Source: Blastococcus sp. URHD0036 (GTDB lineage: Bacteria > Actinomycetota > Actinomycetes > Mycobacteriales > Geodermatophilaceae). Taken from it: a stretch of DNA of 64,000 bases. The position numbers and the translations under genes are program-made. Of this stretch, positions 22,779-26,628 are shown in pieces. Below the pieces are notes generated by a model that ran no database searches, was not told where the DNA came from, and saw nothing but the letters and a program-made list of their open reading frames with translations. The stretch is from assembly GCF_000701365.1 (NCBI RefSeq), contig NZ_JNIK01000013.1, forward strand, positions 372,001 to 436,000, given 5' to 3'. Position 1 is the first letter of the stretch. Each line of letters starts with the position of its first letter.

Positions 22779-23252
22779 ATGCGCATCACCGCCCGGGTCG
22801 ACTACGCCGTCCGCGCCGCCCTCGAGCTGGCCGCCGCGGCGCCCGGCGCACTCACCTGCGACAAGATCGCCACCGCGCAGGACATCCCGTCGCGCTTCCT
22901 GCAGTCGATCCTCGGCGACCTGCAGCACGCGCGGCTGGTGACCAGCCAGCGGGGCCGGGAGGGCGGCTACCGGCTGGCGCTGCCGGCGGAGGAGATCTCC
23001 ATCGCCCGGGTCATGCGCGTCGAGCAGGGGTTCCTCGCCGAGGTGCACGGTCAGCGCCCCGAGGACGTCGTCTACCCCGGCACCGCCGAGCCGCTCGCCG
23101 CGGTCTGGGTCGCCGCGCGCGCCGCGTACCGGCGGGTGCTCGAGGAGGTCACCCTCGCCGACGTCGTCGCCGGGAAGCTGCCGGCCGAGGTGACCGAGCT
23201 GGCCGACGTCGAGAGCGCCTGGCGCTCGTTCGGAGACGCCCCCGGGGCCTGA
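22779..23252 (+). CDS. Rrf2-family transcriptional regulator
   Basis: 157 residues. The N-terminal winged helix (MRITARVDYAVRAALELAAA, then IPSRFLQSILGDL and VTSQRGREGGYRLALPAEEI) is typical of Rrf2. Only one cysteine (in TCDKI) is present, so the three-cysteine iron-sulfur cluster of IscR/NsrR is absent. This resembles CymR-type members that sense cysteine metabolism through partner proteins. It sits 30 bases ahead of cysC on the same strand, making sulfur-gene control the likeliest role, by inference. Confidence 0.9.
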   Translation: MRITARVDYAVRAALELAAAAPGALTCDKIATAQDIPSRFLQSILGDLQHARLVTSQRGREGGYRLALPAEEISIARVMRVEQGFLAEVHGQRPEDVVYPGTAEPLAAVWVAARAAYRRVLEEVTLADVVAGKLPAEVTELADVESAWRSFGDAPGA

Positions 23253-23282: not shown

Positions 23283-23846
23283 ATGAGCAGTCCTGCCCCC
23301 GCCGGCGTGACCGTCTTCCTGACCGGGCTCTCCGGCGCCGGGAAGTCCACGATCGCCGACGCCCTGGTGGCGCAGCTGGAGGCCGAGGACCGGCCGGTCA
23401 CCGTGCTCGACGGCGACGTGGTGCGCACCCACCTCTCCAGCGAGCTGGACTTCAGCCGCGAGCACCGCGACCTCAACATCCGCCGCATCGGCTTCGTCGC
23501 CGGCGAGGTCGTCCGGCACGGCGGCATCGTCGTCGTCGCGGCGATCGCCCCCTACGAGGAGGCGCGCGAGCAGGCCCGCGAGCTGGTGGAACGGCACGGC
23601 CGCTTCCTGCTGGTGCACCTGTCCACGCCGCTGGAGGTCTGCGAGGACCGCGACGTGAAGGGCCTCTACGCCCGGGCCCGCGCCGGGGAGATCACCGGCT
23701 TCACCGGCATCGACGACCCCTACGAGCTGCCGGCCCGGCCGGACCTCGTCATCGACACCTCGGTCACCCCGCTGGCGGAGTCCGTGGCGCGGATCCGCGC
23801 CGCCGTGCAGGCCGCGCAGAACGGGGCACCGGCCCCGGTCGCCTGA
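23283..23846 (+). CDS. cysC: Adenylylsulfate kinase
   Basis: Phosphorylates APS to PAPS using ATP. The 187 residues include the P-loop GLSGAGKST at 15-23, the APS-binding DGDVVRTHLSSELDFSREHR and the lid KGLYARARAGEITGFTGIDD. It is the first enzyme gene of this sulfate-assimilation cluster. The reductase encoded downstream (cysH) has APS-reductase cysteines, so CysC may serve sulfation or a parallel PAPS route. Sulfate adenylyltransferase genes (cysD/cysN) are not in this window. Confidence 0.95.
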   Translation: MSSPAPAGVTVFLTGLSGAGKSTIADALVAQLEAEDRPVTVLDGDVVRTHLSSELDFSREHRDLNIRRIGFVAGEVVRHGGIVVVAAIAPYEEAREQARELVERHGRFLLVHLSTPLEVCEDRDVKGLYARARAGEITGFTGIDDPYELPARPDLVIDTSVTPLAESVARIRAAVQAAQNGAPAPVA

Positions 23847-23886
23847 GTCACACCGGCGGCCCGCGGCGGTGTGAGACCATCAGGGC

Positions 23887-23973
23887 GTGACCGGTGGTGG
23901 CGTACTCCTCGTCGCGCGCCGGCACATCGACCTGGCGCGCGTGAGCAGCGCGGTCTGTCACGCCGCGCGCTGA
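23887..23973 (+). CDS. Cysteine-ending leader peptide upstream of sulfite reductase
   Basis: A 28-residue ORF from GTG 23887 to TGA 23971-23973 encodes a peptide ending ARRHIDLARVSSAVCHAAR. The xRxHxDLxRxSSAxC pattern matches the short putative leader peptides known ahead of sulfur genes in Streptomyces and relatives. The lone cysteine codon is TGT, the rarer form in this GC-rich genome, four codons before the stop. It lies 98 bases upstream of the sulfite-reductase GTG. Ribosome stalling at this codon under cysteine shortage is the expected control. It is too short for routine gene finders. Confidence 0.8.
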   Translation: MTGGGVLLVARRHIDLARVSSAVCHAAR

Positions 23974-24071
23974 CACCAGTCCTCCCGCAGCACCTGCTGC
24001 GCTCGATCCCTGGCAGCGCCTCCCGACCGGGGCTGATCCCGGCGGACGACGGCGCAGGAAGAAGTGCCTCC

Positions 24072-25745
24072 GTGTCCTCCCCCACGCGAACCAGCAACCG
24101 ACCCCAGCGGGGTCAGGGCCAGTGGGCGCTCGGCTACCGGGAGCCGCTGAACCCGAACGAGCGGATGAAGAAGGACTCCGACGGCCTCGAGGTCCGCCAG
24201 CGGATCATCGACATCTACGCGAAGGCCGGCTTCGAGTCCATCGACCCGCAGGACCTGCGCGGCCGGATGCGCTGGATGGGGCTCTACACCCAGCGCGCCC
24301 AGGGCATCCCCGGCGGCAAGACCGCCGTGCTGGAGCCCGAGGAGCTCGAGGACTCGTACTTCATGATGCGCGTCCGTATCGACGGCGGGCAGCTCACCAG
24401 CGACGCGCTGCGGGTCATCGGCGGCATCAGCACCGAGTTCGGCCGCGACGTCGCCGACGTGACCGACCGGCAGAACGTGCAGTACCACTGGATCCGCATC
24501 GAGGACGTGCCCGAGATCTGGGAGCGCCTGGCGTCCGTGGGGCTGTCCAGCATGGAGGCCTGCGGCGACGTCCCGCGCGTCATGCTCGGCTGCCCGCTGG
24601 CCGGGATCCTCGAGGACGAGGTCCTCGACGCGACCGACGTGATCGCCGCGACCGTCGAGAAGTACGTCGGCAACCCGGAGTTCTCGAATCTCCCGCGCAA
24701 GTGGAAGACGTCGATGTCGGGGTGCGTGGACCACTGCACCGAGCCCGAGATCGACGACGTCGCCTTCGTCGGCGTCCGCAACGAGGCCGGCGAGGCCGGC
24801 TACGACCTCCTCGTCGGCGGCGGGCTCTCGACCAACCCCATGTTCGGCCAGCGGGTCGGCGTCTTCGTCCGTCCCGACCAGGTGACCGACGTCTGGGCGG
24901 CCTGCACCTCGGTCTTCCGCGACTACGGCTACCGCCGGCAGCGCAACCGCGCCCGCATCAAGTTCCTGATGGCCGACTGGGGCCCGGAGAAGTTCCGCCA
25001 GGTGCTGCAGGACGAGTACCTGCACGAGCAGTTGCCCGACGGCCCGGCGCCCGCCCCCGCCAAGCACGACCAGCGCGACCACGTCGGCGTCGCGAAGCAG
25101 AAGGACGGCAACAACGCCGTGGGCTTCGCGCTGCGCACCGGCCGGATCAGCGGCTCGCTGCTCAGCACGATCGCGGACCTGGCCGACGAGTACGGCCAGG
25201 GCCGCATCCGGACGACGACCCAGCAGAAGCTGGTCATCCTCGACGTCCCGGACGAGAAGGTGGAGGCCCTGGTCGCCGCGCTCGCCGAGCACGACCTCCA
25301 GGTCCGGCCGAGCGCCTTCCGCCGCGGCACGATGGCCTGCACCGGCCTGGAGTTCTGCAAGCTGGCGATCGTCGAGACCAAGCAGCACGCGCAGGACCTC
25401 TACGCGGAGCTGGAGAAGCGCCTGCCGGACTTCGACGTGCCGATCGGCATCAACGTCAACGGCTGCCCGAACAGCTGCGCCCGCTTCCAGACCGCCGACA
25501 TCGGGTTCAAGGGCTCGATGGTCAAGGACGACTCGGGCGAGATGGTCGAGGGCTTCCAGGTGCACCTGGGTGGCCACCTCGGCGTCGAGGCGTCGTTCGG
25601 CCGCAAGTTCCGCGGCCACAAGGTGACCAAGGCCGAGACGGCGGACTACTGCGAGCGCGTGCTGCGCGGCTTCCAGGAGCGCCGGACCGACGGCGAGTCG
25701 TTCGCGCACTACGTCTCCCGGGCCGAGGAGGCCTGGCTCCTGTGA
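24072..25745 (+). CDS. sir: Ferredoxin-dependent sulfite reductase
   Basis: Reduces sulfite to sulfide with six electrons from ferredoxin. From GTG 24072 the protein is 557 residues, the family length. The siroheme/[4Fe-4S] cysteines are C423 and C429 (TGLEFCK) and C465 and C469 (NGCPNSCARF), in the C-x5-C...C-x3-C layout. The two ferrite-like repeats are visible. Nitrite reductases share this fold; the neighbouring cysC and cysH genes decide for sulfite. AGGAAG lies ahead of the GTG. The frame is open upstream to 23871, but that stretch overlaps the leader peptide in another frame. Confidence 0.93.
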   Translation: MSSPTRTSNRPQRGQGQWALGYREPLNPNERMKKDSDGLEVRQRIIDIYAKAGFESIDPQDLRGRMRWMGLYTQRAQGIPGGKTAVLEPEELEDSYFMMRVRIDGGQLTSDALRVIGGISTEFGRDVADVTDRQNVQYHWIRIEDVPEIWERLASVGLSSMEACGDVPRVMLGCPLAGILEDEVLDATDVIAATVEKYVGNPEFSNLPRKWKTSMSGCVDHCTEPEIDDVAFVGVRNEAGEAGYDLLVGGGLSTNPMFGQRVGVFVRPDQVTDVWAACTSVFRDYGYRRQRNRARIKFLMADWGPEKFRQVLQDEYLHEQLPDGPAPAPAKHDQRDHVGVAKQKDGNNAVGFALRTGRISGSLLSTIADLADEYGQGRIRTTTQQKLVILDVPDEKVEALVAALAEHDLQVRPSAFRRGTMACTGLEFCKLAIVETKQHAQDLYAELEKRLPDFDVPIGINVNGCPNSCARFQTADIGFKGSMVKDDSGEMVEGFQVHLGGHLGVEASFGRKFRGHKVTKAETADYCERVLRGFQERRTDGESFAHYVSRAEEAWLL

Positions 25746-25921
25746 GTGAGGAGGGCGGCGGGTCGGGAAGGCAGCGCCAGCTCCCGGTGTTCCACTGCCC
25801 GTACTGCGGGGACGAGGACCTCACCCCGTACGAGGACGAGAAGACCTCGGGCTGGCGCTGCGGCGCCTGCCTGCGGGCCTTCGCGGTCCGCCTGATCGGA
25901 ACGGGAGTGCACCCAGGATGA
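25742..25921 (+). CDS. Zinc-ribbon miniprotein between sir and cysH
   Basis: 59 residues from GTG 25742, which overlaps the sir stop as GTGA; its own TGA overlaps the cysH ATG as ATGA. Cysteines C19, C22, C40 and C43 (HCPYCGDED and RCGACLRAF) form a zinc-ribbon-like pair of CxxC knuckles. Streptomyces carries a comparable small gene between sulfite reductase and cysH (SCO6101, from memory). The tight coupling suggests a helper for assembly or electron transfer in sulfate reduction. No function is proven. Confidence 0.85.
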   Translation: MSEEGGGSGRQRQLPVFHCPYCGDEDLTPYEDEKTSGWRCGACLRAFAVRLIGTGVHPG

Positions 25922-26628
25922 CCACCGCCATCGCCGCGACACCGGAGCTCGCCGCCGAGGCCGACGCCCGGTTCGAGGGCATCGCGGACCCGGTCGAGCA
26001 GGCGCTGGCCGTCCTCACCTGGGCCGGCGAGACCTTCGGGGACTCCTTCGCCGTGACCTCCTCGATGGCCGACGGGCTGCTGGCGCACCTGGCGTCGCGC
26101 GCCGTCCCGGGCGTGAACGTCGTGTTCCTCGACACCGGCTACCACTTCGCCGAGACGATCGGTACCCGTGACTGGGTCAGCGGCGTCATGCCCCTCACCC
26201 TGGTGAACGTCACGGCGCCGCAGACCGTCGCCGAGCAGGACGCGGAGTACGGGCCGCGGCTGCACGAGCGCGATCCCGACCTGTGCTGCTCGCTGCGCAA
26301 GGTGCAGCCGCTGGCGGAGGCCCTGGCCGGCTATGCCGCCTGGGGTTCGGGCGTGCGCCGCGACGAGTCCCCGACCCGCACCGGCACCCGGGTCGTCGAC
26401 TGGGACGCCAAGCGCGGCATGGTGAAGGTCAACCCGCTGGCCGCGTGGACCGACGCCGACGTCGACGCCTACATCGCCGAGCACCAGGTGCCGGTGAACC
26501 CGCTGCAGGAGATCGGCTACGCCTCCATCGGGTGCGCTCCCTGCACCCGGCCGGTCGCCCCGGGCGAGGACCCGCGCGCGGGTCGCTGGGCCGGCCGCGG
26601 CAAGACCGAGTGCGGCCTGCACACGTGA
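25918..26628 (+). CDS. cysH: Adenylyl-sulfate (APS) reductase, CysH family
   Basis: Reduces APS to sulfite and AMP using thioredoxin. 236 residues. C123-C124 (DLCCSLRKV) plus C206 and C209 (IGCAPCTRP) are the four ligands of the [4Fe-4S] cluster that marks APS reductases rather than PAPS reductases. The catalytic cysteine is C232 in KTECGLH at the C terminus. SSMADGLLAHLA is the nucleotide-binding loop region. It is the last gene of the translationally coupled sir-miniprotein-cysH unit. Confidence 0.94.
   Translation: MTTAIAATPELAAEADARFEGIADPVEQALAVLTWAGETFGDSFAVTSSMADGLLAHLASRAVPGVNVVFLDTGYHFAETIGTRDWVSGVMPLTLVNVTAPQTVAEQDAEYGPRLHERDPDLCCSLRKVQPLAEALAGYAAWGSGVRRDESPTRTGTRVVDWDAKRGMVKVNPLAAWTDADVDAYIAEHQVPVNPLQEIGYASIGCAPCTRPVAPGEDPRAGRWAGRGKTECGLHT

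Follow-up and report, generated by a model that had tools for sequence, protein, structure and literature searches.

A leader peptide with a near-invariant UGU codon as a candidate cysteine sensor upstream of the sulfite reductase gene in Blastococcus

INTRODUCTION

Short polycysteine ORFs of Mycobacterium smegmatis mediate cysteine-responsive attenuation, according to papers that cite this work (PMC13236596, PMC9094748, PMC9031893). These mycobacterial attenuators have several consecutive Cys codons close to where the ORF ends. Ms4527A is said to have been among the ORFs tested by Canestrari in 2020. Leaders of cys genes with runs of Cys codons were predicted earlier in Mycobacterium and a few other bacteria, with no clear terminator noted in that study's treatment of them (Seliverstov 2005; PMC1262725). 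A reannotation of S. lividans lists eight leader peptides, none of which is presented as cysteine-dependent in the passages devoted to them (PMC8079986). Outside the phylum, the Rhodobacterales cysS leader uORFC-8-2 has two tandem Cys codons, predominantly UGC, and an intrinsic terminator (PMC8632094). As for the choice among synonymous regulatory codons, the isoacceptor-charging theory offers an account of the codons used in attenuators, and codon choice alters sensitivity (PMC1183508).

An initial annotation of a 64,000-nucleotide stretch of the Blastococcus sp. URHD0036 genome (hereafter the window, i.e., the whole stretch analyzed) proposed that a short upstream ORF (uORF) encodes a cysteine-responsive leader peptide controlling the sulfite reductase gene sir. 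Like uORFC-8-2, this uORF places Cys coding before a cysteine gene; it differs in having neither tandem Cys codons nor an intrinsic terminator, in its codon (uORFC-8-2 uses mostly UGC), and in belonging to another phylum. It also differs from the polycysteine mycobacterial attenuators in having a single Cys codon, TGT. Here, we describe the uORF as an ordinary member of a known leader peptide family whose one candidate regulatory codon is under an unusually sharp constraint, and we propose how it may control sir.

RESULTS

The uORF (plus strand, 23887..23973) encodes a 28-amino-acid product, MTGGGVLLVARRHIDLARVSSAVCHAAR, from a GTG start codon at 23887 to a TGA stop codon at 23971-23973; 98 nt separate this stop from the assumed GTG start of sir at 24072, which agrees with the spacing given in the initial annotation. 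It sits in a sulfur gene cluster where Pfam and NCBIfam matches identify an Rrf2-type regulator (22779-23252) and cysC (23283-23846) upstream. Downstream lie sir, encoding a ferredoxin-type nitrite/sulfite reductase (24072..25745, plus strand; Pfam NIR_SIR, 4e-57), and cysH, encoding a (phospho)adenylyl-sulfate reductase (25918..26628, plus strand; NCBIfam NF002537, 1e-73). Between them, a small zinc-ribbon-like ORF (25742-25921), with weak Pfam and NCBIfam matches only, overlaps the sir stop codon. Among the matches listed, the closest named relative of sir is from Blastococcus, at 95% identity.

The uORF peptide matches the NCBIfam model NF042934, "putative leader peptide" (cis_reg_atten), with 35.3 bits against a cut-off of 27 (E value of 6e-9) over all 19 model positions, so that the HxDLxRxSSAxC pattern was rightly said to be common to short leaders of other actinobacteria. 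In keeping with what NF042934 requires, it is a short ORF directly upstream of a controllable gene, and we found no difference between it and an ordinary member. It is also related to the Ms4527A-type polycysteine leaders, scoring 30.2 bits with NF042936 (Ms4527A Cys-rich leader peptide), under the curated cut-off of 45. The comparison of sir upstream regions suggested by the initial annotation relied on one scan with the sir protein, from which the best 80 of at least 575 confirmed loci were taken. The leader motif was present upstream of sir in 80/80 of these relatives and was in each the top-scoring 14-residue window, with scores of 41-70 against 6-27 for the next best. No Rfam element matched the window at gathering thresholds.

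The family is widespread within the class. The genome itself holds five matches at E values up to 0.01, three of them over the cut-off, and the other four members precede genes for a cysteine dioxygenase, a DUF4395 protein, a family 5 solute-binding protein, and a TauE-type exporter. Matches at E values up to 0.01 occur in 111 of 112 genomes of the same taxonomic family (104 over the cut-off), and those at E values up to 1e-4 in 181 of 296 genomes sampled across the class (177 over the cut-off). A sample of 296 genomes from the phylum yielded 16 with matches, all from the same class, and thus no member beyond it. For comparison across the family, we collected, for the most part, the top-scoring loci from each search (up to 30) and added 59 hand-picked for spread, which is not a random sample; L276 was excluded. 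Of 147 such loci, 142 were placed, the script leaving out L018, L128, L139, L142, and L145. The sets of 142 family members and 81 sir leaders (the window plus the 80 relatives) partly overlap and are not phylogenetically independent.

The ORFs behind the 142 members were chosen by script and then searched against Pfam. The commonest domains were rhodanese (27), DUF4395 (25), and sulfite/nitrite reductase (22), with 25 of 39 families listed, followed by cysteine dioxygenase (11), PLP-dependent enzyme (7), PAPS reductase (4), and sulfatase (3); the ORF behind L141, looked up singly, is cysteine-synthase-like. The position of DUF4395 behind 25/142 leaders (e.g., L003) points to a role of this protein in sulfur metabolism. 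Among four polycysteine-type leaders looked up singly, a sulfurtransferase-like gene follows L126 and L131, whereas sir follows here, and the genes behind L119 and L127 have no NCBIfam match. The family match, the motif before sir, and the protein-level selection described below rule out a chance ORF. The uORF is therefore a real leader peptide of an already known kind, since the mycobacterial polycysteine leaders have been published as cysteine-responsive attenuators.

The protein-level NF042934 model is blind to the codon that encodes the motif cysteine and to the RNA segments around it. The sole Cys codon of the uORF is TGT at 23956..23958 (plus strand), followed by four codons and the stop. 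The initial annotation had singled it out as the rarer form, and the wider comparison bears this out: TGT accounts for none of the 21 Cys codons that the five cluster genes contain and, among the sir genes of the window and the best 80 of at least 575 relatives (the sequences of L101 and L117 being incomplete), for 22 of 722, whereas the motif Cys codon is TGT in 81/81 leaders of that same set and in 138/142 family members. Of the unplaced loci, L128, L142, and L145 also carry TGT. Elsewhere in the sir leaders, Cys is always encoded by TGC (39/39, with the same frames counted from ten codons upstream of the motif through to their end); Fisher's test gives a P value of about 2e-32, uncorrected for relatedness. 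The bias persists without the 15 polycysteine-type rows, a script pattern having set these rows and the labels "polycysteine" and "mycobacterial" denoting resemblance: in the remaining 127 members, the motif codon is TGT in 124, while the other Cys codons are TGC in 122 of 130 and TGT in 8. The 15 rows themselves have TGT at position 13 in 14 cases and further TGT codons within the run.

The four TGC exceptions are L013, L014, L189, and L244, the last of which precedes a sir-like gene. L013 and L014 are close leaders before an FAD-NAD(P)-binding-like protein (a family found behind 5/142 members), which in L013 has no NCBIfam match; with TGC and a downstream gene of less obvious sulfur role, these two may have changed function. 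The AGC codon at the second Ser of the motif also appeared fixed at first sight, as the sir leaders use AGY for 76 of their 77 Ser residues there. We rejected it as an invariant, and it is not a rule, because TCN, GGN, and ACN occur at that position in the wider family.

We considered that TGT could be fixed through RNA pairing rather than decoding. The uORF hairpin is indeed more stable than that of shuffled sequences in leaders of Blastococcus/Geodermatophilus (mean z of -1.07, n = 34) and Frankia (-1.51, n = 7), and the TGT codon occupies the hairpin loop in the examples inspected; values of -0.7 and -0.6 were obtained for 16 Modestobacter/Klenkia and three Streptomyces leaders, respectively. 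The codon has no steady partner, however (mean pairing of 0.42 with A and 0.16 with G), and replacing its T with C makes the ensemble energy fall by more than 0.5 in 32 of 81 leaders but rise in 21. Nor does the wider family show a hairpin signal in the 141 of 142 members tested, one being skipped for length (mean z of 0.04 for 108 outside and -0.12 for 33 inside the taxonomic family), and Nocardiopsis leaders (z of +0.62, n = 9) keep TGT nonetheless. The missing steady partner and family-wide hairpin led us to discard pairing as the cause of the TGT rule, an explanation we deem quite improbable.

ARAGORN, run at all 47 tRNA matches in the genome, identified a single tRNA-Cys gene, with anticodon GCA; UGU thus requires wobble decoding, which leaves the isoacceptor-charging theory unable to discriminate between the Cys codons here. 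Our literature search, whose reach ended short of the experimental paper on polycysteine leaders (Canestrari 2020), turned up no title devoted to a UGU rule. This constraint is unusually sharp for an otherwise ordinary leader and merits experiment.

The conserved peptide motif, RRHIDLARVSSAVC, is encoded at 23917..23958 (plus strand). Counting from its first codon as 0, codons 0-8 show a pN/pS of 0.16 in the 34 Blastococcus/Geodermatophilus-type leaders. In codons 9-12 of these leaders, the ratio is 0.69 and pS is lower; beyond the Cys codon, codons 14-16 reach 2.15 with a pS of 0.12. Over all 81 sir leaders, the values are 0.36 for codons 0-8 and 0.99 for codons 9-12. R0 and D4 are present in 81/81 and the His residue at position 2 in 80/81 of these leaders, while third bases vary. 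To judge from these substitution patterns, codons 0-8 are held at the protein level, and the later uORF codons look constrained as RNA.

Classical attenuators require only their regulatory codons, and a motif lying 1-13 residues ahead of the stall point suits an arrest peptide. It is thus conceivable, if not the reading we would favor, that RxHxDLxRxSSA slows the ribosome itself from within the exit tunnel, so that one UGU is enough and the leader works as a nascent-chain-assisted attenuator. The contrast between codons 0-8 and those after the Cys codon in the 34 leaders argues for such an arrest peptide, as do the near-invariant R0, D4, and His residues with their varying third bases. The same conservation could also reflect the needs of a free peptide or of translation rate, and selection looks weaker over the whole set of 81. 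Protein-level selection on the motif would also be expected of a small functional peptide, or of a conserved ORF with no role in sir control, but the position before sir and other sulfur genes, the TGT rule, and the reduced synonymous change at codons 9-12 and 14-16 make this very unlikely.

The RNA between the uORF and sir was compared in an alignment of 34 of the 81 sir leaders, obtained by removing from 45 rows the 11 Modestobacter-type leaders after these had proved to lack the third segment described here. The stretch from the uORF through to the ribosome-binding site contains four complementary segments. Segment 1 (CAGCGC, 23946..23951), within the uORF, and segment 2 (GCGCTG, 23967..23972), over its last codon and stop, are each invariant in 34/34 leaders, as is the CAGCGC (24014-24019) of segment 3 (CAGCGCC, 24014..24020) in the noncoding spacer. 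Segment 2 can form six of six pairs with either segment 1 or segment 3, and both pairings are complete in 34/34 leaders. Segment 4 (GGCGC, 24051..24055) can pair with segment 3, forming five pairs in 16/34 leaders and GCGC:GCGC in 33/34. It abuts, without pairing to it, the Shine-Dalgarno region of sir, AGGAAGAAG (24056..24064), where AGGAAG is found in 27/34 spacers and which GCGC adjoins in 33/34 leaders. A further hairpin, H2 (CGCAGC-ACCT-GCTGCG, 23986..24001), keeps all six pairs in 25/34; these features are all on the plus strand. CAGCGC is the only 6-mer found in 34/34 spacers, with a chance of 0.14 per shuffled spacer.

Unaided, RNAalifold predicts the pairings 1:2 and 3:4 as well as H2. 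Covariation is small, being confined to H2 (5 cells changed on both sides) and two pairs around UGU in hairpin 1:2, and its near absence follows from segments 1-4 being nearly invariant. With the ribosome edge placed at UGU+10, pairing 2:3 is favored over 3:4 in 27/34 leaders. In the naked full-length RNA, the model favors 2:3 over 1:2 plus 3:4 in 30/34, so the off state apparently requires that a ribosome occupy the stop codon. The mean cost of opening the Shine-Dalgarno site, some sites being misassigned, was 5.1 kcal/mol for the full RNA, 4.2 for the stalled state, and 4.5 with the ribosome at the stop codon; with the same misassignments, opening was easier in the stalled than in the at-stop state in 20 of 45 leaders and harder in 14. 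Because these differences are so small and some sites misassigned, we do not take accessibility as proof of switching.

This arrangement suggests translational attenuation. The initial annotation had named a CCGGG/CCCGG hairpin (24027..24042, plus strand) as an example of small hairpins that could act as the switch; it is present, but its columns vary in the alignment, and the blocks at 23946-23951, 23967-23972, 24014-24020, and 24051-24055 are better candidates. The 11 Modestobacter-type leaders have segment 1 in 11/11 and segment 2 in 10/11 but no segment 3, with CAGCGC nowhere in the spacer of 10 and only at the ribosome-binding site in L079; other clades show different folds. The RNA part is thus clade-specific, whereas the peptide and its UGU codon are class-wide.

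Control could alternatively act on transcription, for example through Rho binding the untranslated spacer once the ribosome leaves at the stop codon. The spacer is C-rich, and an involvement of Rho in the cys leaders of mycobacteria has been put forward as a weak prediction (Seliverstov 2005; PMC1262725). We nevertheless consider this unlikely, given that the conserved pairing converges on the ribosome-binding site. We found no intrinsic terminator at 23800-24140, which sets the sir leader apart from a classical transcription attenuator, though it is irrelevant to Rho.

Upstream of the uORF, a promoter-like block, TGTGAGACCAT (23870..23880, plus strand), ends 6 nt before the start codon. The block, TGTGnnAnnAT, lies 5-8 nt before the start codon in 51/51 leaders (the window and 50 relatives), scored with a pattern (T[GA]TG.[GC]A..[AC]T plus 5-8 nt to the start) derived from these same sequences; L085, without a start codon at the expected place, was dropped. 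The pattern occurred in 0 of 1,020 dinucleotide shuffles. A Shine-Dalgarno-like motif precedes the uORF in 14/51, and a sigma-70 consensus scan found nothing. The block would fit a leaderless uORF transcript of the kind reported for short ORFs in mycobacteria. An inverted repeat, CACACCG...CGGTGTG (23850-23874), lies just before and extends into it; its CACAC...GTGTG arms look similar by eye in some relatives, and it may be an operator, at which the upstream-encoded Rrf2-type regulator perhaps acts.

DISCUSSION

We infer that the sir leader responds to cysteine. Sensing of this amino acid is supported by family membership, the place before sir, the sulfur genes downstream of other members, selection on the motif, the near-invariant TGT, and the mycobacterial precedent. 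The uORF thus probably encodes a leader peptide that senses cysteine and governs the translation of sir, in all likelihood together with that of the genes behind it. This retains the sensor peptide of the initial annotation, on the grounds of family, position, selection, and TGT, and replaces the hairpin it had put forward as a possible switch.

In the mechanism that we propose, the 5' end of the transcript would coincide with the uORF start codon or lie close to it. Under a shortage of Cys-tRNA, the ribosome would stall with UGU in the A site and cover segment 1, leaving segment 2 to pair with segment 3, so that segment 4 and the Shine-Dalgarno sequence would stay open and sir would be made. 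When Cys-tRNA is plentiful, the ribosome would reach the stop codon and cover segment 2; segments 3 and 4 would then pair beside the Shine-Dalgarno sequence, and sir would be held down. UGU may be retained because a codon decoded by G-U wobble would be read more slowly and so make a sharp sensor of a single codon. As in the enterobacterial trp, his, and leu attenuators, ribosome position would set the choice between competing RNA segments; unlike them, the sir leader would act at the ribosome-binding site, with a conserved peptide and one tRNA-Cys gene.

Against this mechanism stand the TGC codon of the sir leader L244, the scarce covariation, the preference of naked RNA for pairing 2:3, the small changes in the cost of opening the Shine-Dalgarno site, the 11 Modestobacter-type leaders that lack segment 3, and the 11 of 142 members that precede cysteine dioxygenase, where control switched on by starvation makes little sense. 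One of them, L002 (C13:225167-225220, minus strand), is a TGT-bearing member in the same genome. Because turning on cysteine breakdown under cysteine scarcity would serve little purpose, the control logic at L002 may be reversed.

More broadly, we tentatively suggest, with rather less than even confidence, that a class-wide set of actinobacterial sulfur regulators senses cysteine through a near-fixed UGU codon that closes a conserved nascent-chain motif and is read by wobble by one tRNA-Cys, and that codon kinetics and the nascent chain, not isoacceptor charging, would set their sensitivity. With one half of the ORF constrained as protein and the other as RNA, simple reporter mutants could tell the two roles apart, and a near-invariant UGU read by a single tRNA isoacceptor offers a direct test of why attenuators prefer one synonym.
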